From: a virus
Direction: 5' to 3' (one strand)
Length of the DNA stretch: 28,750 bases
Virus record (IMG/VR): IMGVR_UViG_3300006738_000055
Coordinates: 1-28,750 of that record
Each line of letters starts with the position of its first letter. Within the stretch, counting starts at the first letter, position 1. A program made the translations under genes and the position numbers. Positions 6,977 to 28,750 of this stretch are shown here, one piece after another. Below the pieces are notes generated by a model. The model saw nothing but the letters and a program-made list of their open reading frames with translations. It did no database searches and had not been told where the DNA came from.

Positions 6977-7000
6977 CTAACCAATAAGGGGATAATAACA

Positions 7001-7354: not shown

Positions 7355-7373
7355 AAAATACCATTATACCAAA

Positions 7374-8130: not shown

Positions 8131-8142
8131 TAACCTCGGTGA

Positions 8143-8173: not shown

Positions 8174-8185
8174 AAATAATTTAAA

Positions 8186-8304: not shown

Positions 8305-8323
8305 ACAATTAAAGGAGAATAAC

Positions 8324-11198: not shown

Positions 11199-11247
11199 GA
11201 TAACCGCTCTATATTCATTAACTTAGACACCCACTTAGGAGGAAGAA

Positions 11248-12147
11248 ATGATAGATATTGAGAAGGTATATCATTGGTATATAAAAACCCAAAATGAAGC
11301 TAATAGAGAGAAATACGAGGAATATGATGGGTGGCTATCAGCATCCAGTGCAGGTCAGTGCCACAGAAAACAATGGTATAAAACGTACAAATATGATGAG
11401 CGGCCAATAGAAAGAGACTCAGCTAGAAAGATGAGATTAGGAACTGTGGTACATGAGGACATCCTTGAAAAAGCTATACCTACGTATCTCATTATGCATG
11501 GAAGTCTCCCCGGTGTTGAGAATTGGACAGTTTATATAGAAGACAGAATAGAACTCCCCGATGTCAAGGTAGTCGGTCATTTAGACCTAGTATCTATCAA
11601 CCCAGATATGGGGTCGGCTATTTTGAGCGACTTCAAAACAGTGCATAGCTATAAATGGAGAAAGATGTTTGGTCACATAAAGAATAGGGACAAGAACCCA
11701 AGTATAAACTATGAACTCCAGCTGGGAACTTATGCATTGGGAGTTAAGCGTAAGTATGATGTTGATACAGTAGAGATGAATATAGTATGGTATAATAAAG
11801 ACACAAGCACAATGCGTACAACTAGGATACAAAAAGCATATCAAACTGAAGCATTGAACTATTGGACTAATCTAAAAGAAACAATAGAAGAAGAAGACTA
11901 TGATAAAGTATATAAGTTCAAATCATTGGTGCCTGGCACGTGGAACTCTCCTATTAATGAGTGGGAGTGTAACTATTGTCAATTTAATCATATATGTAAA
12001 AGTCCGTTTATAACAAAAAAAGGAGTTAGTAGTGAAAATGCCAAAAGCAAAGGAACCAGTCTTAAAGACAAGCGAAGAGCTAGTGCTGACAAAGGCTCTA
12101 CCTCAAGTGGAGGAGGGAGTCTCCCAGAAGCACAGAAAAGTAAGTGA
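11248..12147 (+). CDS. PD-(D/E)XK exonuclease, Cas4/RecB-like, with Fe-S cysteines
   Basis: This is predicted to be a DNA exonuclease that makes single-stranded tails for the annealing protein encoded next. Active-site elements in order: H70 in GTVVHED; GHLDLV (110-115, D113); SDFKT (127-131, D128 and K130); and YELQLGTYAL (Q158), the helical QhxxY motif. Four cysteines, C38 in GQCHRKQ plus C241, C244 and C250 in ECNYCQFNHIC, match the Fe-S staple of Cas4 and AddB. The start at ATG 11248 follows AGGAGG. The last 38 residues are low-complexity Ser/Lys-rich and are encoded by the 116-base overlap with the next gene, so they probably carry no function of their own. Confidence 0.85.
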   Translation: MIDIEKVYHWYIKTQNEANREKYEEYDGWLSASSAGQCHRKQWYKTYKYDERPIERDSARKMRLGTVVHEDILEKAIPTYLIMHGSLPGVENWTVYIEDRIELPDVKVVGHLDLVSINPDMGSAILSDFKTVHSYKWRKMFGHIKNRDKNPSINYELQLGTYALGVKRKYDVDTVEMNIVWYNKDTSTMRTTRIQKAYQTEALNYWTNLKETIEEEDYDKVYKFKSLVPGTWNSPINEWECNYCQFNHICKSPFITKKGVSSENAKSKGTSLKDKRRASADKGSTSSGGGSLPEAQKSK

Positions 12148-12667
12148 TATACCCACACCGAGAGCATATATATTCAAGAAAGGTAACGACCACAACAGCC
12201 CAGAGTATGTCAAATTCCCTTATATGCGTAGTATTGCGAATAAGGAGTATCCTATATGGAGCTTCACCGTAATTAACACAGGCCCCGTTGGAGATAAAGC
12301 GTGGTATGTACACGGCAGATTAGAATGGGTTGATAATGGTATAAAAAGACAAGGCGACATGGTAGCAGCTCACAGGATACAAGTTAAAAGGGGAACAAGT
12401 GAGTATGTTGACATTGGTAATGATATAAAGGCAGCCGTAACAGACTGTCAAAAGAAAGCCTTCAATGTCTATTTAAATATAAGTGATGATATATACAGAG
12501 GTCATGTAGATGACATGGAGTTAAGTGAAGAACAGATTAATGAGATTATGGATATGGCTAAATCAGCAGGAAAAGAGGAGAAAATAGCTTCTCTTATTGA
12601 ATCTGGTGAGATAGCCGGACACAGTTACGAAGGCTCATTAGCAAAACTAAAGAGGCAATCGAAATGA
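12032..12667 (+). CDS. RAD52-like single-strand annealing protein
   Basis: This is a candidate recombinase that anneals complementary single strands during phage recombination-dependent replication. The central part reads WSFTVINTG, WYVHGRLEW and MVAAHRIQVKRG, then DIKAAVTDCQKKAFNVYL. The last segment resembles the 'A.tDAlKrA....G' helix shared by RAD52/Sak-type annealing proteins. Residues 1-45 and the C-terminal 50 are charged and probably flexible. The neighbours support the role: an exonuclease upstream and an SSB-like protein downstream. The start GTG 12032 is preferred over ATG 12038 because AAAGGAG is six bases upstream. It lies 116 bases inside the nuclease gene. Confidence 0.6.
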   Translation: MKMPKAKEPVLKTSEELVLTKALPQVEEGVSQKHRKVSDIPTPRAYIFKKGNDHNSPEYVKFPYMRSIANKEYPIWSFTVINTGPVGDKAWYVHGRLEWVDNGIKRQGDMVAAHRIQVKRGTSEYVDIGNDIKAAVTDCQKKAFNVYLNISDDIYRGHVDDMELSEEQINEIMDMAKSAGKEEKIASLIESGEIAGHSYEGSLAKLKRQSK

Positions 12668-12900
12668 CAAGTCTAAGTTACGATGAAGGACTTCTAGAAT
12701 ACGGAAGCCAATATAGTCTTGGTACTAACGATGGTAAAGAGTTCCGAAGAGTCACATTTATAGGTTATAAACTCATGTTTGGTAAACAAATCATGGTGTT
12801 TGAAACTCAGGACTCAAGCAAACTCACTGTCAATCCAAGCTATCATTGTTGGACACTAGAAGAAAACGAAACACACAGAAAGGAGAATAGCGATGGGTAA
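12664..12900 (+). CDS. Hypothetical protein, 78 aa
   Basis: The start codon overlaps the TGA of the annealing protein as ATGA. The product is beta-rich (KEFRRVTFIGYKLMFGKQIM, VFETQDSSKLTVNPSYH), suggesting a small barrel, and it may bind a partner or nucleic acid. A conserved-looking TVNPSYH segment stands out. I recognise no named family. It overlaps the next gene by 8 bases and contains that gene's ribosome binding site (AAAGGAG). Confidence 0.7.
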   Translation: MTSLSYDEGLLEYGSQYSLGTNDGKEFRRVTFIGYKLMFGKQIMVFETQDSSKLTVNPSYHCWTLEENETHRKENSDG

Positions 12901-13165
12901 ACTAACTGTAGCAGAGGCTGAAAGATTGCAGTCTAGCGGTGTTTTAACTAAGAACACTGTTGAGAAAATGCAGACAGAAGGTCTTGTAAGCTCAAGAAGA
13001 ACCTCGTCTCAGCGTTGGGTTAAAACCGCTGATGGTAGTTGGGTTCGACCTACTTTATACTACGCTGGAGGCAAAGGTGCCAAGTATAGTAAAAAGATGA
13101 CAGAGTTAACAGCTAAAGTCCATGCCTTGTTTGAAGAGTATGGCACAACAAGAACCAATAGTTAA
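12893..13165 (+). CDS. Hypothetical protein, 90 aa
   Basis: This is a basic small protein with an N-terminal helical part (LTVAEAERLQSSGVLTKNTV), a middle SSRRTSSQRWVKTADGSWVR with Trp and Arg that could contact nucleic acid, and a C-terminal helix. No family is recognised. AAAGGAG lies six bases before ATG 12893. It sits between the recombination genes and may be an accessory to them. Confidence 0.7.
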   Translation: MGKLTVAEAERLQSSGVLTKNTVEKMQTEGLVSSRRTSSQRWVKTADGSWVRPTLYYAGGKGAKYSKKMTELTAKVHALFEEYGTTRTNS

Positions 13166-13179
13166 GGAGTATAACAATA

Positions 13180-13815
13180 ATGCGAGAAATAGATGCGTTC
13201 TTTGATGATAAACAAACAGGCTTTCTACCTATTGAAGCAGGTACTTATCCTGCTCACGTAGTAGGATTAACTGAGAGAGATGTCAATACCAAAAGTGGTA
13301 AGGCAATAGTATTTCAGTTAGCCTATAAAATAGCCGAGGAAGCTAAAGAGATTGAGCAAAACGTCTATGAAATGGATGGATGGAATTATACGCTCAATTC
13401 TAGTGGAAATAAAGTACCGGTGATGAACGGTGACGGCACGCCTAAAACGGCTAAATGTACACACATGCCCGAAAAGACGTTCAAGGATAAAGGTATATTC
13501 CTTTTCCCCGGTAATGCTAACTCTGGTAGAAATAGGAGATACTTCGAGCTTTTAAGTGTGCTTGGAGTAGAGACTGCCAGCATCACTAAAGATGGACAAG
13601 TATTAAAGAAGCTTGTTCTTCTTGATGAGGATGACGTTGTAGGTAAGCCGTTTCTAGTAAGAATATCTCAAGAGGAGTTTATAACTTCTGAAACGAGAGA
13701 CTTGCCGGAGCCTCAACAGGTAAAGAAAAAGGTGTGGAAAGTGTTTGATAGAACACCCTGGGAAGATGGTGAAGTACTTGACCCAGCTGAACTATCAGAT
13801 GATGTACCCTTTTAG
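13180..13815 (+). CDS. SSB-like single-stranded DNA-binding protein
   Basis: The 211-residue protein ends in an acidic tail finishing DDVPF (last residues ELSDDVPF), the hallmark of bacterial and phage SSBs that recruit partner proteins. The N-terminal half starts AFFDDKQTGFLPIEAGTYPA, a beginning common in the DUF669-type phage proteins that replace SSB, and continues with beta strands. AAGGAG lies upstream of ATG 13180. Its role would be to coat single strands made by the exonuclease and by the DnaB helicase downstream. The tail is strong evidence; the fold is inferred. Confidence 0.7.
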   Translation: MREIDAFFDDKQTGFLPIEAGTYPAHVVGLTERDVNTKSGKAIVFQLAYKIAEEAKEIEQNVYEMDGWNYTLNSSGNKVPVMNGDGTPKTAKCTHMPEKTFKDKGIFLFPGNANSGRNRRYFELLSVLGVETASITKDGQVLKKLVLLDEDDVVGKPFLVRISQEEFITSETRDLPEPQQVKKKVWKVFDRTPWEDGEVLDPAELSDDVPF

Positions 13816-13827
13816 GTAAATGGCACA

Positions 13828-13899
13828 TGGGATGTAGTCTAAAGGCAAGGCACTCGGCTGTTAACCGAGATGATGTAGGTTCGAGTCCTACCGTCCCAG
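13828..13899 (+). tRNA. tRNA-Asn (anticodon GTT)
   Basis: The 72-nt cloverleaf is complete. The acceptor TGGGATG (13828-13834) pairs with CGTCCCA (13892-13898), with one T-G wobble and discriminator G. The D-arm loop contains GG. The anticodon stem is CTCGG/CCGAG around CTGTTAA (anticodon GTT). The T-arm is GTAGG-TTCGAGT-CCTAC. CCA is not encoded (CAA follows the discriminator). It lies 12 bases after the SSB-like gene. It may compensate for Asn codon demand in the AT-rich phage genes. Confidence 0.93.
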
Positions 13900-14217
13900 C
13901 AAATAGGCATATTCATTTTACAACTTCTATGCTCCTCCGCATGTTGGTACGCTAAAGTAAAGTGGATGTGCCGTAATTACGAGGGGGCTTGGTATTCTTC
14001 TTCTGCAGGGTTGAAGAATAGCGGGATTGACCGCCTATGCCAAGTCCCATCTAAAATGGATGGTCACCGATGAGCCAATTTAAGATTGGTAGAAAATGCT
14101 GAATACCTCTAACAGGTTGTTGCCGTAATAATTCTAGAGCCCTGTTAAGTATTAGACTATAAACACACACGGTTAACACTCTGTTTGCGGAGTGAGGGGC
14201 TAGCCATCCATAAACAT
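13900..14217 (+). ncRNA. Highly structured non-coding region downstream of tRNA-Asn
   Basis: No gene is visible in 318 nt, but pairing is dense. A three-way junction spans 13984-14048: an outer 9-bp stem (13984-13992 with 14040-14048, one G-U), TATTCTTC/GAAGAATA (13993-14000 with 14013-14020) and GCGG/CCGC (14021-14034). Further hairpins are CCAAT/ATTGG, TAACAGG/CCTGTTA (14110-14116 with 14141-14147) and CACTC/GAGTG (14177-14194). TGCCGTAAT occurs at 13969 and 14121. This is consistent with a large structured RNA next to a phage tRNA. The family is not identified. Confidence 0.5.
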
Positions 14218-14330
14218 TAGGTGAGCTATATTTTCACGAACTTAACTTAAAAGGAGTCCAAGATTATGTTAGAGTACTTGGTATCTCAGGGTTTGGAACG
14301 TGAAGTGCCCCGCAACACATAGCTCACCTA
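14218..14330 (+). promoter_or_regulatory. 113-nt element closed by a perfect 12-bp inverted repeat
   Basis: TAGGTGAGCTAT (14218-14229) is the exact reverse complement of ATAGCTCACCTA (14319-14330). The 89-base loop contains a ribosome binding site and an 18-codon ORF whose stop codon lies in the 3' arm. The ribosome binding site of the next gene is just outside. It parallels the element at 8186-8304 in size and place. Confidence 0.6.
14266..14322 (+). CDS. 18-codon ORF inside the inverted-repeat element
   Basis: ATG 14266 lies nine bases after AAAAGGAG and reads MLEYLVSQGLEREVPRNT to TAG 14320-14322. The stop is in the 3' arm of the closing stem, so a terminating ribosome would keep that stem open. 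It could be a leader peptide controlling the downstream gene, or a micro-protein. The good ribosome binding site supports translation. Confidence 0.45.
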   Translation: MLEYLVSQGLEREVPRNT

Positions 14331-14351
14331 TAAAATTAAAAGGAGAACGTC

Positions 14352-14717
14352 ATGAATGAAAAAGATGGCTTTAAACTAAAGGTCACAAGCAGTACAAAGC
14401 GTAGCGAAGAACCAGTATATATTGATGATAAAGTAATACCCAAGATGAATTTCGGGGGTGATACAGGAATAGACGCTGATTATGAGCAAGCTGCAGCAGA
14501 CGCTGATGAAAACTGTATTAGTATAAAGGATGTTAATAAGGAAATTGCTAAAGACTATAAATATGAACATGACCAAATAAGCGAAATGGTATTGCCGGAT
14601 GAAATAATAGTAGAATCAGTAGTTAATGTAAAAGATGCAAACTATACAAGGTATTACGATAAAGAACTTGGTATATGGTTTTGCAAATTTTGTGAGCAAC
14701 AAATCGTGGGAGACTAA
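14352..14717 (+). CDS. Hypothetical protein, 121 aa
   Basis: The gene starts at ATG 14352 after AAAAGGAG. The product is acidic, rich in Asp, Glu and Lys and mainly hydrophilic, and ends in a WFCKFCEQQIVGD segment with CxxC, a possible half zinc site. No family is recognised. It follows the 113-nt inverted-repeat element and may be controlled by it. The ribosome binding site of the 26-aa membrane protein that follows lies at its end. Confidence 0.7.
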   Translation: MNEKDGFKLKVTSSTKRSEEPVYIDDKVIPKMNFGGDTGIDADYEQAAADADENCISIKDVNKEIAKDYKYEHDQISEMVLPDEIIVESVVNVKDANYTRYYDKELGIWFCKFCEQQIVGD

Positions 14718-14718
14718 A

Positions 14719-14799
14719 ATGGAAATTATAACTGATATAATCGTCATATGGATAATGTTACTCATTTATCAAATACTAAGGAGATTGGAAAATGAATGA
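14719..14799 (+). CDS. Single-span micro-protein, 26 aa
   Basis: ATG 14719 follows GGGAG by six bases and the ORF ends with TGA 14797-14799, overlapping the next start by 8 bases. The product is a hydrophobic span (IITDIIVIWIMLLIYQIL) with a charged RRLENE tail. Its layout matches the 27-aa micro-protein at 9012. Function unknown. Confidence 0.6.
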   Translation: MEIITDIIVIWIMLLIYQILRRLENE

Positions 14800-15109
14800 G
14801 GAAGCTGTTGTAAGAATACGAGCAAGTGAGTCTGAACTAGAGTGTATTATATGGGCGCTCACAGTTATAAAGACCATGAGGATACCAGTCGACCCTGAAT
14901 GGAAAGTTCCATACAAATCTCTTTTGAAAGATATGCTTAGAATTAGTGACAATCTTGTTAAAGAGAAAAGAAACCAAACAGCTAAATTAATTAAAGCACA
15001 TCAGATTGGTAATGTAGAAGACTTTGATAAAGTTATTGACGTTGAGAAGGAAATACAGAAGTCACAAGGGACTTTAGTCGCTGGATGTAAGGGAGATGAC
15101 TGTGATTAG
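14792..15109 (+). CDS. Hypothetical protein, 105 aa
   Basis: AAGGAG lies eight bases before ATG 14792. The product is mostly helical and charged, with a C-terminal AGCKGDDCD segment holding two cysteines. No family is recognised. It overlaps the 26-aa gene at its start and a possible 29-codon ORF at its end. Confidence 0.7.
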   Translation: MNEEAVVRIRASESELECIIWALTVIKTMRIPVDPEWKVPYKSLLKDMLRISDNLVKEKRNQTAKLIKAHQIGNVEDFDKVIDVEKEIQKSQGTLVAGCKGDDCD

Positions 15110-15191
15110 GGGTAAAACACGAAAACAGTATTTGGCTTCAATCCTAAGAATACCTCTATTTATAGACGATGGTTGTATCGCCTTATGTTGA
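15102..15191 (+). CDS. Possible 29-aa ORF (GTG start)
   Basis: GTG 15102 lies six bases after AAGGGAG and reads MIRGKTRKQYLASILRIPLF onward to TGA 15189-15191, overlapping the previous gene by 8 bases. The product is basic then hydrophobic. It could be a real micro-protein or chance; the ribosome binding site and junction style favour the former modestly. Confidence 0.4.
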   Translation: MIRGKTRKQYLASILRIPLFIDDGCIALC

Positions 15192-15268
15192 GAAAGTGGC
15201 TTAAAACCCCCTTTAAACAGTCCGTTTTTTCCAAAAATCCTAAAAAACTAGTAAAAAGGAGTAAAACA

Positions 15269-15517
15269 GTGAAAAGAGCGCCATTATACATATTTAAAGT
15301 AAAAAATAATATAATAAATAGATTCTTTATAAGAATAGTAAGGAATAAACTGAATAAAAAAAGGTATACACTTGTTTGCCGGGGCAGACATAGTAATAGA
15401 AAGGGGTTATATGAAAAGCATGGATGGAAGTATACCAAGTATTTACAAAATGAAGTTCCACTAAAGTATGCTGAGACTATTGGTATATACTTAAGGGACA
15501 AGAATGAAATGTCCTAA
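15269..15517 (+). CDS. Hypothetical basic protein, 82 aa
   Basis: The start is GTG 15269, chosen because AAAAAGGAG lies seven bases upstream; the upstream extension of the frame to 15173 has no ribosome binding site. The product is very basic (MKRAPLYIFKVKNNIINRFF, then RIVRNKLNKKRYTLVCRGRH) and probably binds nucleic acid. No family is recognised. Its end overlaps the next gene by 14 bases. Confidence 0.65.
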   Translation: MKRAPLYIFKVKNNIINRFFIRIVRNKLNKKRYTLVCRGRHSNRKGLYEKHGWKYTKYLQNEVPLKYAETIGIYLRDKNEMS

Positions 15518-15932
15518 GTGTGGGGAAGAGATAGAAGCTATCCCAATGACAGTGAGTGACTCTTATAGGTCACCAAGAAGACAGAGAGACTTAGATAAGC
15601 TAATGATGAAAATGGATAAGAGTTTAAGAAAGCTAGTAAGAAAGGTTATAAACGATATACAGAACAATATACCATCAGAACAATTAGGCAAAGGAGTAAT
15701 GCCTTTCCTAAAGGCAATTACTTCAGTTGACAAAGAAGTTGCCAAATGGGCTATAAATAGTTACTACAAAGGAAAATATGTATATCAAGGAAAAGGATTC
15801 GCATATCTAAAGTATATAATAAACTCACACTCAATGAATAGAGAAAGGCTTCTAAAGAATGAACGTAAAACTTATGGAAGCTTACCAAAACCTAAAACGA
15901 TAAAGGAGAAAGAAGATGGAGAGTCTATTTAA
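15504..15932 (+). CDS. Protein with N-terminal CPKCG half-knuckle, 142 aa
   Basis: The N terminus MKCPKCGEEIE carries a CxxC half of a zinc ribbon, but no second Cys pair follows, so full zinc binding is doubtful. The rest is basic and helical (KLMMKMDKSLRKLVRKVIND; later KAITSVDKEVAKWAINSYYK). AAGGGAC precedes ATG 15504. It overlaps the previous gene and the DUF932 gene (17 bases), whose AAAGGAG lies in its last codons. Function unknown; a nucleic-acid accessory role would suit the context. Confidence 0.7.
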   Translation: MKCPKCGEEIEAIPMTVSDSYRSPRRQRDLDKLMMKMDKSLRKLVRKVINDIQNNIPSEQLGKGVMPFLKAITSVDKEVAKWAINSYYKGKYVYQGKGFAYLKYIINSHSMNRERLLKNERKTYGSLPKPKTIKEKEDGESI

Positions 15933-16707
15933 AGTAAGTGAAGTACCGGCAAGAGCAGAACTCGTTACACCAGGTGCTCCACAAGCAGATTACGCAAATA
16001 CATCATATAAATTCATAAGAAGAGATGATACAGGACACATTCTAGGATGTGTAACAGATAACTATAGGCTTGTGACCAATGATGAACTCTATACTCTATC
16101 TAGCAAGGCAGTAAAAGACAATGGTGGTGTCTTTATAGGTGAAAGAGTATATGGTAATGGGGAGAAGACCAGATATAAGTTCCGATTTCCAGAAGAGAAG
16201 GTAGAAGTCAGTAAAGGAGACTTTGTGAACCCAGAAGTCCAAATATGGAATAGCTATGATGGGACAACAGCCGTTCACCTAATTACCGGTGCATTCAGAA
16301 TGATATGTTCTAATGGTATGGTAATAGGTTCAGTATTTGGGAAGTTCAATAATAGGCATTCTAAATATAATGCTAACATAGACAAGTTAAATGAAACTAT
16401 ACCATCAATGGTAACAGCAGCAAAGCAAACAGCAGTCGAAGACATGGGATTCCTCAGTAATGTCCCAATAAAAGGGAATGACCTATTAAAGGTTCTTGAA
16501 CTTGTCCCAGAGCAATACATGGAACAGACTGTTGACTATACAATAACCAATAAACCTAAAACATACTGGGATTTACTCAATGTAGCTACATGGTGTACTA
16601 CACACTTGATGAATGATGAGCAGCTGAGTAAACCTAAAGTAGAAAGTAAAATATATCCATTAATAAAGAGGTTAGCCAATAATGCATCCGAAGTAGCAGA
16701 GGCATGA
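15916..16707 (+). CDS. DUF932 family protein
   Basis: The 263-residue protein fits the phage/plasmid DUF932 family: an N-terminal region with a YKFIRRDDTGHILGCVTDNY segment (the family's repeated 'r.d.g..lg.v...Y...n' strand), EVQIWNSYDGTTAV, then FRMICSNGMV, and a helical C terminus. Family members occur widely on phages and plasmids and their biochemical role is unknown. AAAGGAG lies seven bases before ATG 15916. The gene ends with an ATGA junction to the methylase, so the two are probably co-translated. Confidence 0.8.
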   Translation: MESLFKVSEVPARAELVTPGAPQADYANTSYKFIRRDDTGHILGCVTDNYRLVTNDELYTLSSKAVKDNGGVFIGERVYGNGEKTRYKFRFPEEKVEVSKGDFVNPEVQIWNSYDGTTAVHLITGAFRMICSNGMVIGSVFGKFNNRHSKYNANIDKLNETIPSMVTAAKQTAVEDMGFLSNVPIKGNDLLKVLELVPEQYMEQTVDYTITNKPKTYWDLLNVATWCTTHLMNDEQLSKPKVESKIYPLIKRLANNASEVAEA

Positions 16708-17531
16708 ACTCAGAATGGCTTAAATGCCCTGTAGTAATGCCTTATTATGGGGGCAAGTTTGAATTAAGTAGAAGGCTTGTCCCCATGTTGGCTCCACACA
16801 ACAGATATATTGAAGTGTTTGCCGGTGGTCTATCTATGATGTTCAGAAAGCCAAAAGCCAAGTGGAATGTGGTAAATGATATTGATAATGATATTGTGAA
16901 TCTATATATTTGTGTGGTCGAGGAGTTTGAAAAATTATGTGAATACATATACTGGTATCCTCGCTCACGCCAACTGTATTATGAAATAAAAAAAGAAGTA
17001 ATGAGTGGAAAAGATATTCAAGTGCCAGACCCTAAAAGGGCTGCTAGGTATCTATTCCTAATCAAGCTATCATATAATAAAAACCCATATACGGCATTTT
17101 CCAAGTCAGGGAAAGAAGACTGGTCAACAAAGATGTTGGCAGAGCTGAAAATATCAAGAGAGAAGTTCAATCAAGTTACTATAGAGAACCTTCACTTTGC
17201 AAAGCTAGTTGATAAATATCCACCTCAAGCAGGCGATATGTGGTATTTAGACCCACCTTACGTAGCTGCTGAGAGAGGAGACTATTACTTCTATGACTTC
17301 GGAGAAAAAGAACATAAGGAATTAAAGGAATGCGTTGACACCATAAATGAAAATAACGGGAAGTTCATGGTAAGCTATGATGATAAACCTCTAGTAAGAG
17401 AGTTATATAATGAATATAACATAGTAGAGCTTCCAACAATATATACAGGAAATCTAAAGAACAGAAACAAAGTAGTCAATGAGTTGGCTATAATCAACTA
17501 TCCGCAAACAGGCCAAGAGTCCCTATTTTGA
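16704..17531 (+). CDS. dam: DNA adenine methyltransferase, Dam/D12 class
   Basis: This enzyme transfers a methyl group from S-adenosylmethionine to N6 of adenine in DNA. Motifs in order: PYYGGK (13-18, the D12 N-terminal motif), EVFAGG (37-42, the AdoMet-binding FxGxG motif) and YLDPPYV (181-187, the catalytic DPPY). The length of 275 aa fits the Dam/D12 class. No cognate restriction nuclease is adjacent, so it is probably an orphan that shields phage DNA from host restriction or marks DNA for packaging or replication. The target site cannot be read from the sequence. It is ATGA-coupled to the DUF932 gene, and its stop overlaps the DnaB leader. Confidence 0.92.
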   Translation: MNSEWLKCPVVMPYYGGKFELSRRLVPMLAPHNRYIEVFAGGLSMMFRKPKAKWNVVNDIDNDIVNLYICVVEEFEKLCEYIYWYPRSRQLYYEIKKEVMSGKDIQVPDPKRAARYLFLIKLSYNKNPYTAFSKSGKEDWSTKMLAELKISREKFNQVTIENLHFAKLVDKYPPQAGDMWYLDPPYVAAERGDYYFYDFGEKEHKELKECVDTINENNGKFMVSYDDKPLVRELYNEYNIVELPTIYTGNLKNRNKVVNELAIINYPQTGQESLF

Positions 17532-17542
17532 AAGGAGGTATC

Positions 17543-18895
17543 ATGGTTAAAACGAGCATTCAACCTGAAGTACAACCTCTTCCCTCTAGTAAAGAAGCAG
17601 AAGTCGCTGTACTTGGTTCATTGTTGCAAAAAGGTGATGAAATATATGAGAAAATAGCTGCATGGATTAGAGAAACAAAAGCCTTCTATTTTACCGAAAA
17701 TAGACAGGTATGGATAGCAATACAATCCCTATGGAAAGACAAAGAACCAATAGATACAATAACAGTTATAGAGAGATGTAAACAGCTATATAAGAATAAG
17801 GACGATAAAGTTAGTTCATACTTCATCACGGGATTGGAAGAAGCAGTACCGACAGCCGGTAATGTAGAATACTATGCTAAAATCGTATGGGAGAGGCACG
17901 TACAAAGAGAGACTGCATTGAGTGCCCATAGGCTATTTGATACGAGTTTTGATGACTATGAAGAAATAAATAAGACACTAGAAACTCATGCACGTCTTAT
18001 AGAAGAGTTGAGAGAAATACATCCGACAAAGAAGCGTGATATGAGTAGTATAGTAGAAGAAGTAGAAGAAGAAATGAAACAGGCTAATAATATCATTCAG
18101 TTTGGACTGGATTATCTAGATTGGCCTGCAGGGGGAATGACACGTAAAGAGATAACTGTCTTAGGTGGAAGACCAGGACATGGTAAAACAACTCTTATGG
18201 TAAACGCATTAAAAGGACTAATAGAACAGGGGTATTCTGTTATGCTATTCTCAAGAGAAATGAGTATAACAGAGTTGATGAAGAAGATAGTAACAATGGA
18301 AAGTGAAATATTACTCTACCACAGAGTCAGAAGAGGTATATATGAGAATGGAGAAAATGAAGAACTAACAAAAACATTGAATGATATTAAGAGGAAATAT
18401 AAAAAGCTAATAATCTATGATGATGTAAGGAAACTAGATGAATCTATAAGAGAGATTGTCCGGCACAAGCCAGACGTGGTAATAGACGACTATATTCAGC
18501 TAATACAAGTAGGTGATGGAAAGAAAGATAGAAGGTTCGAGATAGAAGAAATAATGTATGAATATAAATGGGTATGTAAGAAGTCTGGTTGCAGCGCTAT
18601 GCTGGTAAGTCAGCTAAATAGAGAAATAGAAAGAAGATTAGACCCAACTCCTAGAATGAGTGATTATGCTGAGAGTGGGGTAATAGAGCAAACAGCAGAA
18701 ACTGCGATGTTCGTCTTCTATGGATATAACTTCGACCCAGAGAGATATAACCAATATCAATCTCAAATAATAAATGCTAAATCAAGGTATGGAACGATTA
18801 ATAACTATAAGATGGGTTTCTACGGAAACAAGTGTAAGTTTTATTCAACAATGCAAGAAGCACAGAATGAAGCTTCAAAAGAGATGACAAAATAA
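17543..18895 (+). CDS. dnaB: Replicative DNA helicase, DnaB-like
   Basis: This is the hexameric 5'-3' helicase of the phage fork. The N-terminal domain starts with SKEAEVAVLGSLL, the usual DnaB opening, and the C-terminal RecA-like domain has Walker A GGRPGHGKTT (208-217) and Walker B VVIDDYIQLI (about 312-321), followed by a QLNREIERR segment with the arginine-rich end of the fold. The 450-residue length matches the family. The start ATG 17543 is preferred over TTG 17528 because AAAGGAGGT lies immediately upstream. No primase, loader or DNA polymerase is encoded in this block, so priming and synthesis probably depend on the host or on genes outside the window. Confidence 0.93.
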   Translation: MVKTSIQPEVQPLPSSKEAEVAVLGSLLQKGDEIYEKIAAWIRETKAFYFTENRQVWIAIQSLWKDKEPIDTITVIERCKQLYKNKDDKVSSYFITGLEEAVPTAGNVEYYAKIVWERHVQRETALSAHRLFDTSFDDYEEINKTLETHARLIEELREIHPTKKRDMSSIVEEVEEEMKQANNIIQFGLDYLDWPAGGMTRKEITVLGGRPGHGKTTLMVNALKGLIEQGYSVMLFSREMSITELMKKIVTMESEILLYHRVRRGIYENGENEELTKTLNDIKRKYKKLIIYDDVRKLDESIREIVRHKPDVVIDDYIQLIQVGDGKKDRRFEIEEIMYEYKWVCKKSGCSAMLVSQLNREIERRLDPTPRMSDYAESGVIEQTAETAMFVFYGYNFDPERYNQYQSQIINAKSRYGTINNYKMGFYGNKCKFYSTMQEAQNEASKEMTK

Positions 18896-18912
18896 ATAAG
18901 AACTAGACAGTA

Positions 18913-18957
18913 GGGCTTGAGATAAGTTTTTTCTGCTTCTTTTCTCATCTTAAGCCC
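18913..18957 (+). promoter_or_regulatory. Intercistronic stem-loop between dnaB and the resolvase gene
   Basis: GGGCTTGAGAT (18913-18923) pairs with ATCTTAAGCCC (18947-18957) over 11 bp with one G-U, around a 23-base pyrimidine-rich loop. An ACTAG/CTAGT pair flanks it. No T-run follows. It is in the only sizeable gap of this part of the block and may be a processing site or a partial terminator that lowers resolvase expression. Confidence 0.5.
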
Positions 18958-18979
18958 GAACTCTAGTATGGAGTTTATT

Positions 18980-19495
18980 ATGGTAGTATTCGGAATAGAC
19001 CCAGGTGCAAGCGGTGCAATAGCATCATATGATGGAAAAACACTAGATTTCGTCAAATGCCCAAGTGGGGGTAAAGATATGGCAGATTCCGTCAAGTCAA
19101 TAATACATGGTTTTGAGATAAAAGGAATCGTCCGGTCAGACATTTTAGTTGGATTTGAGCGAGTTCATGCTATGCCACATGACGCCAGAAATTCTGCCTT
19201 TAAATTCGGTAGAAATGTGGGAATGTGGTGGGGAGTACTTGGCTCACTGGGATTAGATTTTATAGAAATAGCACCTAGAACATGGCAAGCACACTTTCTT
19301 CATAAAAGAATAAAGGTTAAGAAGGATAGAAAAAATAAGCTTAAAGAAATAGCACAAAATATGTTTCCAGATAAGAAAGTGACTCTTATCAACTGTGATG
19401 CAATATTAATCGCAGTGTATTATTATCAAACCTCGCAAAAAGAAAGGGAAGAAAATGATAGAAAAACCGACACCACTATTTCAGATAGGAAATAA
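18980..19495 (+). CDS. RuvC-like Holliday junction resolvase
   Basis: This is predicted to cut branched recombination intermediates, clearing DNA for packaging. The RNase H-like fold is shown by FGIDPGASGAIA (D7), VGFERVHAMP (E60) and INCDAILIAVYY (D140), which supply the acidic metal ligands. The segment GRNVGMWWGVLGSLG follows E60 as in the family. The start ATG 18980 is chosen because GGAG lies six bases upstream; ATG 18968 would place that site inside the gene. The product is then 171 residues, the usual length. It ends 41 bases inside the next gene. Confidence 0.88.
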   Translation: MVVFGIDPGASGAIASYDGKTLDFVKCPSGGKDMADSVKSIIHGFEIKGIVRSDILVGFERVHAMPHDARNSAFKFGRNVGMWWGVLGSLGLDFIEIAPRTWQAHFLHKRIKVKKDRKNKLKEIAQNMFPDKKVTLINCDAILIAVYYYQTSQKEREENDRKTDTTISDRK

Positions 19496-19682
19496 ATATG
19501 CTGGACTAGAGATAATAAAGTTAGATATAGAAGGACTAGCTACACAATGGAACATAACATTAAAAGCATTCCCACTATTTATACAAATAACACAGGCCAG
19601 TGGAAGTTCAGCTAATATAGCCTTTGGAATTGGATGGTTCTATCTGTCTTTAGGGTGCGGGGTTGGATATGCATGGAAATAA
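19455..19682 (+). CDS. Hypothetical protein with possible membrane segment, 75 aa
   Basis: ATG 19455 follows AAGGGAAG and lies inside the resolvase gene (41-base overlap). The N-terminal half is mixed beta (PTPLFQIGNKYAGLEIIKLD), and the C terminus contains a hydrophobic Gly-rich stretch, ANIAFGIGWFYLSLGCGVGY, that could span a membrane. No family is recognised. Confidence 0.6.
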   Translation: MIEKPTPLFQIGNKYAGLEIIKLDIEGLATQWNITLKAFPLFIQITQASGSSANIAFGIGWFYLSLGCGVGYAWK

Positions 19683-19770
19683 ACCAATTATAAAAGTCGT
19701 TATTTCTAAGATAAAAATAATAATTAGAGAGTTAAAAGAATTAGTGAGGGAATTAGAAAGAAGGTCTTAG
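19669..19770 (+). CDS. Possible 33-aa basic amphipathic protein
   Basis: A short ORF from ATG 19669 to TAG 19768-19770 reads MHGNKPIIKVVISKIKIIIR and continues ELKELVRELERRS. It is a basic helix with hydrophobic and charged faces. It overlaps the previous gene by 14 bases but has only a weak ribosome binding site (GGTTGG). It would be the last gene of the rightward block. Confidence 0.4.
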   Translation: MHGNKPIIKVVISKIKIIIRELKELVRELERRS

Positions 19771-19791
19771 CTTTTTATTCCGACATAAAAG
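19771..19791. terminator. Weak AT-rich hairpin between convergent operons
   Basis: CTTTTTAT and ATAAAAG can pair across a short spacer, with one bulged A. T-rich flanks lie on both strands, which could make a weak bidirectional terminator between the convergent early and late units. The stem is AT-only apart from one closing pair. Confidence 0.3.
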
Positions 19792-19816
19792 TAAAACAGG
19801 TGACTGCGTGAACCTC

Positions 19817-22800: not shown

Positions 22801-23689
22801 ACCTCTGAAATGAAGATTGAGAAGCAAGTTTTAAGTTCTCATCGGTAGCATTTATACTATCCTTAGAGAACCAATATTTCTTTTCAAGTCTTACATCGCC
22901 AACTGTACCATCTTGTACAGAGCCGTCTCTCGCAGGAAAAGAAACTAAATATCTAGTTGCATCTTCTCCATGTATAGTTACCTCTGCCTTTTTTCCAGTC
23001 TTACTTGTCAATATAAAACCTTCTAAACCTCCAAATACAACAGAGTTTAGACTATCTCTATTGTTCCAAATGTTGTCATTATGATAATTGATTAAGCCAT
23101 TAGTTATATTAGTATACCTAGTTGTAAAGAAACGAGCTTTGCCCTGAATAATATCAGAGCTTCGTTTAATCATTTTAATAATCTTTGCAAACTTACCTGT
23201 TTTATCTCTAGAATAAACTAAGTTGGCCGGTTCCCATAATGCTCGTTCCCAAAATGTTAGAGGTTCTCCTGATGGCTTGTATCCTTTAGCTGCTTTATTA
23301 AAATGTTTATCTAATTTCTTATGAAATGACTTAGCTCTTCTCCAATGATATTCATTAAGGTCAACTAGTGGTTCAGTAAAGTCATCTGAAAACTCGTCAC
23401 GTATCATATTTAAGAAATCATCTATTACAGTAGGGTCATAAAAGCTTGTCTTACCAAGCTCATCTACATGCTTCTTCAATAGATTATGTATATCAGACAT
23501 ATACTTTAATCTTTTCTTAGATTCTTCTATCTTTTTTGGGTTAGGTTTTCCTGTAAGTCTATGGTATTCTGCTTCAACTGGACTAAGGAATCCAACTAGA
23601 TTCCCTATAGCAGCCTTCGCTTTAGATTCAAAAAAGGTTACATCAGTATTAGAATATTCTCTAATACCTCTTAACGTACTACATTTCAT
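19817..23689 (-). CDS. Giant internal virion-type protein, 1290 aa
   Basis: This large protein at the end of the leftward unit is a likely ejected internal virion protein. Most of the chain is charged and helical, with long Glu/Lys/Arg-rich stretches near the middle. About residue 1112 begins FGGAGKFIFQYKTYPYNQ, resembling the 'G.f.fQfK.f' region of phage large-polyvalent-protein domains (LPD38-like). Hydrophobic segments at about 1194-1206, 1239-1255 (NPVVGLLMRMAVLGLWFGG region) and 1271-1283 could insert in a membrane. No protease, lysozyme or polymerase motif is seen. The start ATG 23689 overlaps the upstream giant gene's TGA as ATGA with no own ribosome binding site, so the two are co-translated and probably work together. 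Confidence 0.75.
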   Translation of the reverse strand: MKCSTLRGIREYSNTDVTFFESKAKAAIGNLVGFLSPVEAEYHRLTGKPNPKKIEESKKRLKYMSDIHNLLKKHVDELGKTSFYDPTVIDDFLNMIRDEFSDDFTEPLVDLNEYHWRRAKSFHKKLDKHFNKAAKGYKPSGEPLTFWERALWEPANLVYSRDKTGKFAKIIKMIKRSSDIIQGKARFFTTRYTNITNGLINYHNDNIWNNRDSLNSVVFGGLEGFILTSKTGKKAEVTIHGEDATRYLVSFPARDGSVQDGTVGDVRLEKKYWFSKDSINATDENLKLASQSSFQRFYQDILDGRVRYIRTAHIPSNFEENQKWREETNEGKFISKVLDEMAAQRKAADENNMTYTPKHKDYHSFKDEAGNQWSFVIVKDEAGERGERINDPRLSQKELEQLMARKDPIVGENYNAFLVQVRYADEVQDPINFFEAGTEEWFGTQEEALERGITVSSLEAVLPEGFYNAKEHKRFRSGKIIGVAEGIEEEGEQGFIYDLEEQFKEYYGFERMIGQPGSGVPKPYRVDTPPGAKPQRRAFDVEDGRGLWNAIKETRSLYQQFFDYVAEETSSLTKDITSRAEVIRQQAEEEGLDEEEIEERIENTMSIGGYKSDIELLRDKEGKLTGEIKVGAFRGDGIIKGRAMNYSPAQYWDGEYERTADEALESWERQIKALKKALSKANKQNRIVIEGKISEIEERMNIMNEVLAKLANIDHDERTIRLMNTPSHLRAVSSMMNRMNRRRDPEVASKYFERTITSLHQTRVKNEFLGVMDNDNTPSGLYDYLTNQAKIAFGETDYRALDRGKDYGLGHEQVANLLNIFSPNKKWKADDVEYYVIMANLYTTSKLLGVHASLHNNTQRLNPIILFGLRRYWKAAQEAQFGPEKDIWKARVENSGVLVLVNAFHEIMLGESGTSVTMANLPQIEYAKIASIVAMGRKKFIKNGDYKVDKMLRLMNKDEKMNAARMMELREAWIDLVDSPSNEADLSKKRQLALTKGRLKTLKRNWTRKEMRKAAIWKLKYFPPIIPGAEKVLTFTGVEAAMRFETGVLSLMIAEEMKAFIPEGDIQVEIAGRQDPADDDAMWYGEDAVDIIRNAVYNTQFGMSQQFLPHMFGGAGKFIFQYKTYPYNQSRHDYRIVKNFLDGNEGQSTIARSIDGSTRLMNLMWDGARRRFKQQNLRDEERDAQRVGRFILGRVIASFFAIFARTSPLTADVVRGIRGMIGGQGVSGSMRFFKAAENPVVGLLMRMAVLGLWFGGDEEDEDDTFKYVRRFLLPPLLSMAIEGITKHLDD

Positions 23690-26600
23690 TTACTTGCTAC
23701 CCTACACCCATTGTCTATTTCATACTTGTCTTGCGCTATATCAACTCTAGTGTCTTTCCATTTTTCTTGTGCCACTCTCTCTTCAGTATTACTAGAAGCA
23801 TCAAGACCATCACTCCATGCATCTAAATACTCTATACTTAAATCTTCGTCCATTAACTCCCACGGCAATAATTTATCTGCTGCATCAGTTATCATAGCAC
23901 TAACCCCACCTCTCTTATTAATACGAACATCACTTCTTTCTAATGCATTCAAAAACATGTGAGTATGTAAAAACTGAGCCCCCGGTGAAAGAGCAAGAAA
24001 CTGATGTATATGGTCTTCTATAAATGCTCCCATCATTTTACTATACTCGTTTCTTACTACTCTATCCTCTGTCGCATCATATTCAGTCCCATCTTCTGCG
24101 ATGTACATCTTATCTTTTCCTATGTTATAGAATCTTGTATGCATCAGCCTTGCAAATTTTTTAGCTGCTTCCAAGTCACCCTCTGCTATAGGAACTTTAT
24201 ACTTATCTACTAAGTGTGCAAAGTTTGCATTAATTGAATCTCTGGCAAATATAAAAGCATTCTTAAGTCTTGTATGGTTATACCTTGTAACGTCCCAATT
24301 TAATACCTCACCCTCTTCACCATGATTTTTTATCTGTTCCCTAGCGAGTTTAAAATATTTAGCAAAGCCTTGTTCAAGACTAGTAAATCTATTATTCATA
24401 GTAACGCTTTTTACCAATTTCTTTAATCTTTTATCGCTAGTAAACATGTGCCTTTTAACACGAGCCCCTTTCTCCTCTGGTGTTGATGCAATAAAGTTTG
24501 CTTTATCGAAGGAACGTCTTCCGATTTCTTGAAGACCTAGTGAACGTCTATTTTTATCACGTCCTTGTCTAAATTGAGAGTAGTTAAAAAAGTTAAAAAC
24601 ATGTCTCATCATGGTTAATGCACCTTCTTCTTTAAGAAGAGATTTAGTAACAGATGGGGCTCCCTTTGGAGAATCAGCATCCTTCCACGAACCATCCTTC
24701 ATTTTTCTAATATTTCTTTTGTCAGCTATCATTCTAGAAAATAAGAAGTTATATCCACTTTTTCCGTATAAGTCTTCATTTCCCCATCCCCATCCATAAA
24801 GCAAAAGCTCTTTAGCATTGTCCACAGAAGCCTGTAATATAGTTGCCATCTCATGAGCGGACGTAGTGTATAAGTATACCTCATTTTCTCCAGTTTCCTC
24901 TGTTACACTTGTAACAAAAGGTCTTTCATCCCCACCTATCGTACCTTCCCATGTTAATCCATAGTTCTTTTCTATATACTCTTTTCCTACAAGTCCATAC
25001 ACTTCCCCTTGCTGATATATATTATTAAGTTTAAATCCATACATATCCTGCCTCCCCATCAGACTAGCCTTCTTATCAGATACGTAGCCAAAAGCCCTAG
25101 TACCTTCTGAAGTAGTTTCTAATAAGAGAAATTCGTTAGGCTTGTTTTCATTACGTAGAAATTCTACCTTTCCAGTAAGAGTTCTTGGCCCGTGCATTTT
25201 CATATAAGCCGAAACTGTCATCCCCTTTATGGAATCGTGTATGGGAGTAAAAAACTTAGCAATAGCCTGTGGAGCTTTAGCACTACTTATTCTAGAAGGC
25301 ATAGATGTCTCACGACCTGCAAACTTTAACAGCTCTTCGGGAGTTTTGATAAACTTACCATCGCTGGTAATAATCTTAACTTTATCATTCTCCATTAGTT
25401 GTTTCATAACTATACCACCATCAGCCGTAAGAACATCTATATCAAGAGGTGCATAGTCCATTATAACATTTGAGTTAGATGGAAGAAATGCCAACTTTGC
25501 ATTTTCCAAATGAGCAGTCTTCCCCTTATCAGTAAGACCAACAACTATATCTTTATAAGATAAAAGCTCTCTAATATTTTTAGCGTTAACAGAGATACCT
25601 TGGGCAAATTGTCCTACCGATACCATAGAAGTAAACTTTTTAATATCATCAAAATTAGCAAGGTTTCCTGTGTGTGTATCATGCTTAAAAATTCCAAGCT
25701 TGATACTCTTCTTCCTATTTTTAAATGCTTTAGAATTAACTGCCTTTTCTAAGGCGTTAGTTAGCTTGTCCGGCAGAAACTCTAGTGCTAGATGGTCACC
25801 GTCATTGTCACCTTGCATAATGTTATATAAAACTTTAGAGTTTGGGATGGCTACATTCCCTAGACCTATTCTTATTTCTTTAATTCTTAAAATTCTAGGA
25901 GAACCAACATCGGGGATAGGCTGTCTATGAACTAATGTTTTAATATCCTCTACAGCTAAGACAGCATTTAACTGATTAACAGCATCGTCCCTTGTCTCTT
26001 TATTCTTATAAAGAGCATCCCATTCTTCCCTAATGCCCCTCTCTTTTTTAGAAGCAGACCTATCTTTTTTACCTATAACCTTATCTGCTACTCTTTTAAT
26101 AGTAACCTCATTCATGTCCCCTACTATTATCTCGTCTTCAGCTACCTCGTTTTTCCAATCGGGATAAATAGTAAATAGAGTACCTTGCCCCGTTCTTCTC
26201 CCCTTAAAAGCAGTCTTCTTAATTAACATATTACCAAGACTACTTCTATATCTTCCCAAGAAAGCAGAATGTCTTAATGCTCCAGCTTTAATGCGATTGA
26301 CAATTTTCCCTTCCTTTAAAGAACCGTAGGAATCAAGTATTCCCATACGCTTTAAATTTCTTTTAAGAAAAGACGGGTTCCATCTTCCCTTGATTAAAGT
26401 AATTATATTTTCTTGCATTATATCAAGTATATGAAAACCAGCTAATTCTAATGCTTTAGCAACATCAGGGTCTTTCATTAAATCAGGTGCAATAAACATC
26501 TCATACCAAGATAGTGGATGTGCTGCACTAGGCTTTCCTTTTGGAGAAGAACCAAAAATAACTTTCATAGATGTCTCAGGGAAATTATAATCAAAGACTT

Positions 26601-28750
26601 CATTTGTAACATCAAACTGACCGGTGTTTCTTTTAGCTTCATCTTTAGTGGCAAACATATCAAACTCAACCCCGTTACCATCGTAAAAATGCATCTGCCC
26701 ATTCTCGTCTTCCCTTGTTTCCATAACAAGACGACCAGTCGCTTTGTCCAAGAAACGTAACCCAGGAGGTGGCTTAGATGCGTTAGCTTTAATAGCCAAG
26801 ACACTCTCTTTGTCTTCGGTAATATGATAAAAAGATGGTTTAAATTCAGATAAGGGATATTCATTTGCTTCAGGCTTTCTACCTGTTGCCTCCTCAACAC
26901 CAGATATAATTCTATCATTAACACCTAAGAACCCATCACCAAAATATCTAGGCTCACCAGTCTCTGTATAATCTTCCTTTGGGTCTCGCCTTACTACATT
27001 ACCATTAGCATCTTCATACTCTATCTCAATAGTATCCATGTCCATAACCATAACACGTGTATCACCAAGACCTCTCGGTGTACTTCCTTCGTTAAATGGT
27101 ATCCTTGTCCTATTAAAATAGTCTTTTACTCCCCTAGTTTGCATATCATCTTCCATGAGATAATTATTTCCCATGACAGATTTCCACCAGTTGTGCCTAG
27201 CCGCAGCTTGTAATAATACAAAATCATTTTCTTCAGCTCTTGTTAGAGCGCTCTCTTCTATGTCTTTGAGGTGCTGCTCTGTCATTCTACCAGCAGCTAT
27301 CTCATCTCTAAAGTATTCAACTACTTTTTTATCCTTCCAAAGAGCGCCATTCTTATATCTAAATTGATTCCCTACTCTGACAATCATAAACGCATTTTTA
27401 TCCGCACCTTTAATTCCTAAAAGAGCCATTGGTCTTGGGCTACCTTTTTCACTTTCAAAATAAGAAAGCTGGTCTTCTAAAAACTCTATGTCTTCAAAGT
27501 TTAAAAAGTCAGGCCCATATTGTGGGTCTTCAAAATTCCTCCATTTAGAATATCTTGTTTCAGCAAACACATCAGAGCCAAGCATCATAACTGTGTCTTC
27601 ACCGACATCTAAATCGTCTATAAAGCTTTTATTAATAAATTCAGATTGTGTGTTTCCCATAAAATCTTTTTCACTGCTTTTTAACTGAACATCACCATCA
27701 ACTGACTGTAGAAACACCTTAGTACTTCTTCTTATAGTGTCATTAGCATGGTTGTAAAAACGAATAAAAGCATTACGTTCTTTTCTATTAAGAGTTTTTT
27801 TCTTTTTCTGCTTTCCTTCAAAGTCTGCTAAAAACATTACTTTTCTATTAGTATTTTGAGCAAACCCGGCAGCTCTAATATATGTTAGGAACTGTTTCAT
27901 ACCCTCAATGCTTCCAACATCTACTTCTAGTTCTCTAGCCTTATGAATCAATGTTGCCACTTCACTATTTAAAAGAGGTGCGCCAAATAGTTTTTGAGTA
28001 GACTCTTCAAATCTCTTAAATACAAAGTCTGCAGGAGAAGCATCCTCTCCAAGAGTCTCATCTTGCTCATCCTCTGGGTCTTCAGTTAAAGACTCGTCAA
28101 ACCCCTCTCCCTGCTCATTGTTGATAGACGCAGCCCATCGCTTTAGTTTCCCTTGCGCAGACTGTGGAACAGAGTATAGAGGGTCAGTTCCATATAGTTC
28201 CTCAGCGAATATGTCAATAACATCGTTCTTATTGAACTTAGTAGTTCTAAACATATTCTTAAGCTTTCTATAAAACCTTTTTATCCATCTTGCCGCCTTG
28301 GCAGGTAGAGACTCTGAAGCCATAGTTATATATACATTAGCAACCTGCCTAGCAAGATACTCTTCAACAACAGCAGTGTCTAGCTCCTCTTGAGTCATTG
28401 TGCCTGCGTCTTCAAATATGTCAATTAGCGGTGTCGACTTCTCTTTGAATATACCTTTCCCAATTTCTTCTAAAGTCTTTTTTAAATCTTCAACATATAC
28501 ACCTTCTTGGGCTTGCCCCTTTTTTATCTTAGCAGCCTTCCATTTATCAAAAGCCTCATTAAAAGACTCCTTAGTTGGGAATACTTTATTTATATCTTTT
28601 ATAACCTTCCGTACTGTAAGACGAACATCAGCATTATCGGGCCAGTGCTGAGCTAAACGTAGCAAACCCATAGCTTCTTCTCTTATCTCAGAAATATTAC
28701 CATCCTCAACAGCACTATAAAATTCACTCACTTCCTCTACAGCCCACTCA
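23686..28750 (-). CDS. Giant single-chain DPBB-type RNA polymerase (candidate virion RNAP), partial
   Basis: At least 1681 residues are visible from GTG 28731, but the frame stays open to the window edge (EWAVEE precedes the GTG), so the true start is outside. Numbering from that GTG: GDGF (598-601), K641 in KPSFYHITEDKESVLAIKA, and SMK (721-723) resemble the first double-psi barrel of QDE-1/RDR enzymes (DG, KG.VA and SMxKF). HRQP (935-938) and GDNDGDHLALEF (974-985) match NRxP...NADFDGD of beta-prime, with R936 to D975 spaced 39 residues against 35 in E. coli. QGISVNA (1044-1050) follows, like GxIxNA in RDRs. It would catalyse DNA-templated RNA synthesis, possibly after ejection with phage DNA. 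The N-terminal 590 and C-terminal 500 residues match no family I know. Confidence 0.72.
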   Translation of the reverse strand, partial: EWAVEEVSEFYSAVEDGNISEIREEAMGLLRLAQHWPDNADVRLTVRKVIKDINKVFPTKESFNEAFDKWKAAKIKKGQAQEGVYVEDLKKTLEEIGKGIFKEKSTPLIDIFEDAGTMTQEELDTAVVEEYLARQVANVYITMASESLPAKAARWIKRFYRKLKNMFRTTKFNKNDVIDIFAEELYGTDPLYSVPQSAQGKLKRWAASINNEQGEGFDESLTEDPEDEQDETLGEDASPADFVFKRFEESTQKLFGAPLLNSEVATLIHKARELEVDVGSIEGMKQFLTYIRAAGFAQNTNRKVMFLADFEGKQKKKKTLNRKERNAFIRFYNHANDTIRRSTKVFLQSVDGDVQLKSSEKDFMGNTQSEFINKSFIDDLDVGEDTVMMLGSDVFAETRYSKWRNFEDPQYGPDFLNFEDIEFLEDQLSYFESEKGSPRPMALLGIKGADKNAFMIVRVGNQFRYKNGALWKDKKVVEYFRDEIAAGRMTEQHLKDIEESALTRAEENDFVLLQAAARHNWWKSVMGNNYLMEDDMQTRGVKDYFNRTRIPFNEGSTPRGLGDTRVMVMDMDTIEIEYEDANGNVVRRDPKEDYTETGEPRYFGDGFLGVNDRIISGVEEATGRKPEANEYPLSEFKPSFYHITEDKESVLAIKANASKPPPGLRFLDKATGRLVMETREDENGQMHFYDGNGVEFDMFATKDEAKRNTGQFDVTNEVFDYNFPETSMKVIFGSSPKGKPSAAHPLSWYEMFIAPDLMKDPDVAKALELAGFHILDIMQENIITLIKGRWNPSFLKRNLKRMGILDSYGSLKEGKIVNRIKAGALRHSAFLGRYRSSLGNMLIKKTAFKGRRTGQGTLFTIYPDWKNEVAEDEIIVGDMNEVTIKRVADKVIGKKDRSASKKERGIREEWDALYKNKETRDDAVNQLNAVLAVEDIKTLVHRQPIPDVGSPRILRIKEIRIGLGNVAIPNSKVLYNIMQGDNDGDHLALEFLPDKLTNALEKAVNSKAFKNRKKSIKLGIFKHDTHTGNLANFDDIKKFTSMVSVGQFAQGISVNAKNIRELLSYKDIVVGLTDKGKTAHLENAKLAFLPSNSNVIMDYAPLDIDVLTADGGIVMKQLMENDKVKIITSDGKFIKTPEELLKFAGRETSMPSRISSAKAPQAIAKFFTPIHDSIKGMTVSAYMKMHGPRTLTGKVEFLRNENKPNEFLLLETTSEGTRAFGYVSDKKASLMGRQDMYGFKLNNIYQQGEVYGLVGKEYIEKNYGLTWEGTIGGDERPFVTSVTEETGENEVYLYTTSAHEMATILQASVDNAKELLLYGWGWGNEDLYGKSGYNFLFSRMIADKRNIRKMKDGSWKDADSPKGAPSVTKSLLKEEGALTMMRHVFNFFNYSQFRQGRDKNRRSLGLQEIGRRSFDKANFIASTPEEKGARVKRHMFTSDKRLKKLVKSVTMNNRFTSLEQGFAKYFKLAREQIKNHGEEGEVLNWDVTRYNHTRLKNAFIFARDSINANFAHLVDKYKVPIAEGDLEAAKKFARLMHTRFYNIGKDKMYIAEDGTEYDATEDRVVRNEYSKMMGAFIEDHIHQFLALSPGAQFLHTHMFLNALERSDVRINKRGGVSAMITDAADKLLPWELMDEDLSIEYLDAWSDGLDASSNTEERVAQEKWKDTRVDIAQDKYEIDNGCRVASK

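Follow-up and report, generated by a model that had tools for sequence, protein, structure and literature searches.

The giant open reading frame at the edge of an environmental phage contig raises the question whether its product is a single-chain, two-barrel RNA polymerase and whether the phage carries this enzyme in its virion. The stretch of DNA analysed, here called the window, comprises positions 1-28,750 of the IMG/VR record IMGVR_UViG_3300006738_000055, and all coordinates refer to it unless another contig is named. Single-chain two-barrel polymerases are few, and they bear on the origin of cellular RNA polymerase and of the RNA-silencing polymerases. The class is taken here as QDE-1, RDR, YonO and crAss gp66, and structural comparisons were made with QDE-1, RDR2, the phi14:2 enzyme, gp64-type polymerases and beta-prime. 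The reading frame, P0001, continues without a stop codon as far as the contig edge and comprises 1687 aa, or 1681 aa counted from a GTG (Table 1). A preliminary description of this DNA, to whose residue numbers 6 must be added to obtain those of P0001, had proposed a divergent member of the class from a set of short motifs. All of these are present in P0001, namely DNDGD with HRQP 39 residues before it and ALEFLP directly C-terminal of it, GDGF (residues 604-607), SMK (last residue K729) and QGISVNA (1050-1056).

Table 1. Features of the giant gene and its downstream neighbour in the window (residue numbers are those of P0001)
Feature	Position	Strand	Remark
P0002, conserved partner, 1290 aa	19817..23689	minus	directly downstream of the polymerase gene
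Giant ORF P0001, predicted virion two-barrel RNA polymerase	23686..28749	minus	1687 aa; 5' end missing at contig edge
Polymerase core, 510-1408	24526..27222	minus	aligned in 29 family members, modelled in L029
VDNAK-type motif, D1310 and K1313	24811..24822	minus	matches VDxxK of crAss polymerases; C-terminal to the catalytic loop
Barrel B region, beta-prime-like, about 848-1014	25708..26208	minus	L029 model and window model compared with beta-prime
DNDGD, predicted Mg2+-binding catalytic loop, 981-985	25795..25809	minus	
R-x-P motif, R942 Q P944 (in HRQP)	25918..25926	minus	39 residues before DNDGD
R851 of KxR motif	26197..26199	minus	invariant; L029 equivalent R331
Barrel A region, beta-like, about 574-734	26548..27030	minus	borders carried over from strands of the L029 model; part of the stretch that superposes on QDE-1
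K654, second invariant barrel A lysine	26788..26790	minus	family alignment
K637, first invariant barrel A lysine	26839..26841	minus	family alignment
Barrel A DG motif, D605 G606	26932..26937	minus	invariant in 29/29
Terminal 295 bases, residues 1-98	28456..28750	minus	99.7% identical to L001 10000-10294

Short motifs of this kind can arise by chance. Among 2000 composition-preserving shuffles of P0001, 4.6% contained a DxDGD motif, and 0.15% contained it together with RxP 33-45 residues upstream. Because of the former rate DNDGD alone is only suggestive, and it is the conservation among relatives that settles the reality of the motif. Direct sequence searches gave no match to P0001 in Pfam, the PDB or phage records, the last including a tblastn search of 50,697 records in which crAss phages were contained and gave no match. 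The PHROG "RNA polymerase beta subunit" appeared below threshold over residues 932-1008 (E 0.026-0.05). The first relative found in IMG/VR is full-length with 3228 aa and 28% identical, and profile searches iterated with the core and with P0002, the protein encoded downstream, led to about 30 distinct IMG/VR contigs. A profile search of their ORFs showed a giant ORF containing the core on nearly every one of them. Intact relatives have about 2,450-3,670 aa, and the protein is therefore larger than the earlier description gave. Pairwise identity between the cores of 29 members is mostly 20-35%, with a minimum of 20%. A scan of GTDB genomes yielded no prophage relatives, and the polymerase family was not found described in the literature searched. 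The family is new and uncharacterised, occurs in environmental phages and is absent from Pfam and PHROGs. The idea of a phage polymerase of this class is supported, but P0001 belongs to an environmental phage family and not to one isolated phage.

Alignment of the 29 cores revealed which residues are kept throughout: D605, G606, G623, K637, K654, K706, G710, R851, R942, P944, D981, D983, G984, D985, G1051 and K1066, the last two lying, like the VDxxK segment, C-terminal to barrel B. RxP stands 39-41 residues upstream of DxDGD in the 29 relatives aligned, and D605 and G623 are 18 residues apart in 28 of them. The second position of the loop differs between members (W, F, H, Y or Q), and the N of the window is unusual. 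DxDGD, RxP and the DG of barrel A, which had been named as catalytic signatures, are hence invariant. This does not hold for the two lysines assigned to barrel A at the same time, K641 and K723 (K647 and K729 of P0001): they vary freely or are exchanged for R among relatives, and the family alignment rules them out as the catalytic pair. The conserved pair is K637 and K654 (K631 and K648 in the earlier numbering). Between the cores of the two relatives L016 and L017, 163 codons differ only synonymously and 68 change the amino acid, and the gene is therefore under purifying selection. A catalytically dead relic, whose fold is retained because it forms a structural part of the ejection machinery, might account for the fast divergence of the giant protein (28% identity to the related contig L001, compared to 81% for TerL) and for the unusual N in the loop of the window. 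It is, however, highly improbable, since it is precisely the presumed catalytic residues that 29/29 members have retained at identities of 20-30%, and a dead enzyme should lose them.

Remote homology was assessed with a profile of crAss RNA polymerases, consisting of phi14:2 gp66 and nine crAss-type homologues. In hhalign, RxP..DxDGD of the family falls exactly on RxP..DFDID of the crAss enzymes, and the VDxxK segment forms a second match collinear with the first. Calculated from well-occupied columns, the score was 37.0, whereas 120 profiles with shuffled columns averaged 16.4 (sd 2.2) and reached 23.5 at most. The profile similarity is confined to the motif regions. Barrel A of crAss gp66 shows the same D-x17-G spacing (D961 to G979), followed by two lysines 15 residues apart. 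The E-value of family versus crAss is 0.073; such modest values are obtained even for known two-barrel pairs (0.075 for crAss versus gp64, 0.0086 for crAss versus gp96), in line with the report that many two-barrel families have no significant sequence similarity outside the DxDxD region (PMC10770324). Matched to the single sequences of gp64 and gp96 of phage P23-45, the family profile did not exceed the shuffle background, gp64 lying near background and gp96 aligning in part. A profile of 4 sequences, run against the PDB, retrieved AR9 beta-prime aligned at RxP..GDYDGD (E 0.012), but this match was not reproduced with profiles of 9 and 29 sequences, and the case therefore rests on the shuffle-calibrated profile comparison and on the fold.

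For the latter, a core of 700 aa was modelled with AlphaFold2 from 29 sequences, with the central member L029 as query and the window in row 2 (29% identical). The L029 model is confident (pLDDT 88.5, pTM 0.87). In a Foldseek search of the whole PDB, ranks 1-12 were taken by QDE-1 (best E 8.8e-10), rank 13 by the phi14:2 RNA polymerase (2.3e-7) and ranks 14-15 by RDR2, followed by cellular beta-prime, so that the predicted kinship with QDE-1 and the crAss-like enzyme reappeared among the top structural matches. VIA gave Z scores of 14.9 over 433 residues for RDR2, 14.2 over 447 residues for QDE-1 and 12.0 over 383 residues for the phage gp64-type RNA polymerase 8f72. The superposition on QDE-1 and RDR2 extends across model residues 1-700 and includes both barrel regions, which the match to the phi14:2 enzyme likewise covers. 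Judged from this joint superposition alone, the aspartates and the lysines would come together in one active site. Barrel B (model residues 328-494) matched AR9 beta-prime with Z 12.7 and E. coli beta-prime with Z of about 12, and L029 R331 forms the first aligned pair with residue 346 of E. coli beta-prime (8tom_J). The model of the window protein itself (residues 200-1390, 9 sequences) is poor with a pLDDT of 53; its top PDB matches were AR9 and PhiKZ beta-prime and also RDR2 (Foldseek E 0.0046 and up), and VIA gave Z 9.5 over 150 residues of barrel B with AR9 beta-prime. Three BFVD entries (A0A516M7V2, A0A516LSI3 and A0A516LUR1) resemble the model across the whole core at TM 0.71-0.85 and 18-21% identity; judged by these models, they evidently belong to the same fold family, deposited unnamed and unannotated.

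On the modelled structures, the core, which is about 700-900 aa long, shows the QDE-1/RDR/crAss-phage fold with both barrels in one chain, as established on the confident model of the relative L029 and transferred to the window protein by alignment. The reading as a new family of two-barrel polymerases follows from the fold matches of L029 together with the ranking of phage beta-prime first by the window's own model. The alternative that DNDGD is a surface calcium-binding loop of an unrelated giant virion protein, with the other motifs due to chance, has a practically negligible probability: D-rich loops are common calcium sites and DxDGD turns up in shuffled sequences at the rate given above, but DxDGD and RxP are invariant in 29 relatives, and the structural matches lead to two-barrel polymerases. 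The class thereby gains a whole family, represented by about 30 phages with identities down to 20% and unseen by Pfam, PHROGs and BLAST, the modelled core of which is structurally nearest to QDE-1/RDR2. The family also offers compact candidate cores (about 700 aa) for biochemistry.

The known enzymes share different parts of this architecture. QDE-1 and plant RDR2 are the best structural matches in the PDB, with both barrels in one chain and in the same order in a single superposition over 430-450 residues. However, they are only 11-15% identical to the family and are eukaryotic RNA-silencing polymerases, RNA/DNA-templated, and not phage giants. Like the family, gp66 of the crAss-like phage phi14:2 (PDB 6vr4) is a single-chain two-barrel phage polymerase in a giant structural protein, in this case of the virion, and D-x17-G, K..K, RxP..DxDxD and VDxxK occur in the same order in both. 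In contrast to the DxDGD of the family, crAss loops read DFDID or DFDVD, and their barrel A starts with DA or DG; crAss genomes are near 100 kb, whereas the phages of this family have about 54-60 kb. Direct sequence similarity to the Crassvirales RNA polymerases was not found. The Thermus phage P23-45 enzymes gp96 and gp64 are single-chain two-barrel polymerases as well, and they too are recognised solely by DFDGD/DYDGD together with RxP. P23-45 gp96 is a giant protein in which an N-terminal two-barrel virion RNA polymerase is combined with a metallopeptidase domain (PMC10770324), and it is fused to the tail tape measure protein, while the family gene instead ends a late operon. Barrel B, RxP and DYDGD of the non-virion beta-prime subunits of AR9 and PhiKZ align with the family, but those enzymes are multisubunit, with beta and beta-prime split over several proteins.

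Gene order points to the place of P0001 in the phage life cycle. The minus strand of the window encodes portal, endolysin, TerL and TerS, and the plus strand the replication genes Cas4-type exonuclease, Dam, DnaB and RuvC. The 53-kb contig L001 is syntenic: a 914 aa protein, the giant protein and P0002 are followed by the replication genes on the opposite strand and then by TerS, TerL, endolysin, portal and more late ORFs. From this synteny the giant gene forms the end of the late operon, opposite in strand to the replication genes. The best matches of TerL are largely podoviruses. The late genes adjoining the giant gene gave no PHROG match, and no match to a tape-measure family was found in the giant ORFs examined. 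Divergence from L001 is uneven among late genes, TerL (1486-3045) being 81% identical and the giant protein (23686-28749) 28%.

The N-terminal regions of the giant proteins provide a further indication. An HExxH motif of zincin type occurs in 20 of the 29, mostly as PHEYAH or a near variant located about 320-460 residues before the core. Further N-terminal domains in relatives are an SF1 helicase, an AlkB-like 2OG-Fe(II) oxygenase, SLOG, GNAT, SAP/HeH, a possible PD-(D/E)XK nuclease and DUF7831. The relatives thus combine several unrelated domains with a zincin metallopeptidase, as is characteristic of polyvalent proteins, and the window copy is cut before that region. Accessory domains are highly variable at the giant-ORF N-termini of L004, L005, L006, L017, L024 and L026. 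In phage N4 (Schitoviridae), a T7-like virion RNA polymerase is fused to a zincin-like metallopeptidase in an ejected polyvalent protein (PMC5512222); N4 and the family have giant size and a zincin-type motif in common, but the fold in N4 is T7-like and the modelled core of the family is two-barrel. A search of the relatives with PF00940 (T7-type RNA polymerase) was uninformative, as a working positive control was lacking, and P0001 has no Pfam match. P0002, with 1.2-1.3 kaa in the family, immediately follows the polymerase gene in nearly all members; it has no Pfam or PHROG assignment and carries conserved motifs such as VYxTQFGMS. In L039 (2360-13324), the polymerase and the P0002 homologue are fused in one ORF of 3655 aa.

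Based on the modelled fold and on gene order, P0001 is very likely a virion-carried, single-chain two-barrel RNA polymerase. It appears unlikely that the two-barrel enzyme is instead made in infected cells and, as YonO or P23-45 gp64 do, transcribes middle or late genes. The neighbouring proteins with no PHROG match leave room for such a role, and the location in the virion is drawn from gene order. However, the gene closes the late operon and shares the strand of TerS, TerL and portal, opposite the replication genes, in both the window and L001. Furthermore, the size of about 2.5-3.7 kaa and the HExxH motif recall those polyvalent proteins that are ejected, N4 vRNAP among them (PMC5512222), whereas the non-virion gp64 has only 616 aa.

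The virion-carried polymerase would be packaged together with neighbouring ejection-type proteins and would enter the cell with the phage DNA. There, Mg2+ bound by D981, D983 and D985 together with the barrel A lysines may drive early-gene transcription on the genome as it enters. The extensive N-terminal parts, which in relatives include an HExxH peptidase motif, a helicase, an AlkB-like domain and others, and P0002 would probably serve packaging, ejection, processing or counter-defence. Activity, packaging and a DNA template are what we infer, and the order of genes suggests the location in the virion. In these environmental phages with a podovirus-like terminase and about 54-60 kb, infection probably starts with the phage's own injected two-barrel RNA polymerase, contained in a polyvalent ejection protein of 2.5-3.7 kaa and paired with P0002, which may be a polymerase or ejectosome partner; this would be an independent invention of coupled ejection and transcription. 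The family is a test case for whether DNA ejection and first transcription are generally coupled via giant polymerase-bearing ejection proteins.

As known from QDE-1/RDR and from archaeal PolD, the two-barrel fold permits both RNA-templated and DNA polymerase activity. Similarity of fold does not decide the choice of template, and the nearest solved structures, RDR2 and QDE-1, use RNA or single-stranded DNA templates. A mainly RNA-templated polymerase, a primase or a DNA polymerase that kept this fold is nevertheless rather improbable here, as the phages are dsDNA tailed phages (DnaB, terminase, portal) and those phage members of the class whose characterisation was consulted here depend on DNA for RNA synthesis (PMC10770324, PMC5467207).

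The beginning of P0001 in the window has to be treated with caution. Over its terminal 295 bases the window agrees with L001 at 99.7% identity, compared to 66-70% in the other matching stretches, and a chimeric end is suspected for this reason. Beyond the near-identical stretch, the alignment jumps the L001 segment holding the HExxH motif. The end of the contig is probably chimeric or otherwise the result of very recent recombination. Residues 1-98 are not to be trusted, and the polymerase core is unaffected. In L001, the near-identical stretch has a weak MazG-like match.

Several further observations concern the genomes. Within window positions 5100-19816, 48 sigma-70-like promoter matches were found versus 48.3 expected, which is chance level; this would be compatible with a phage polymerase for the early genes and proves nothing. 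No convincing repeated motif resembling a promoter emerged when the early region was searched. L008 and L034 are one record, IMGVR_UViG_3300030012_002820 (57,904 bases), and the polymerase gene is split over both of its ends, which suggests that this genome of about 58 kb is circularly permuted and nearly complete. Between TerS and TerL, the window (3425-4309) encodes a protein with two N-terminal CxxC pairs that is 64% identical in L001 and matches the PHROG DNA-repair-exonuclease (metallophosphoesterase-like).
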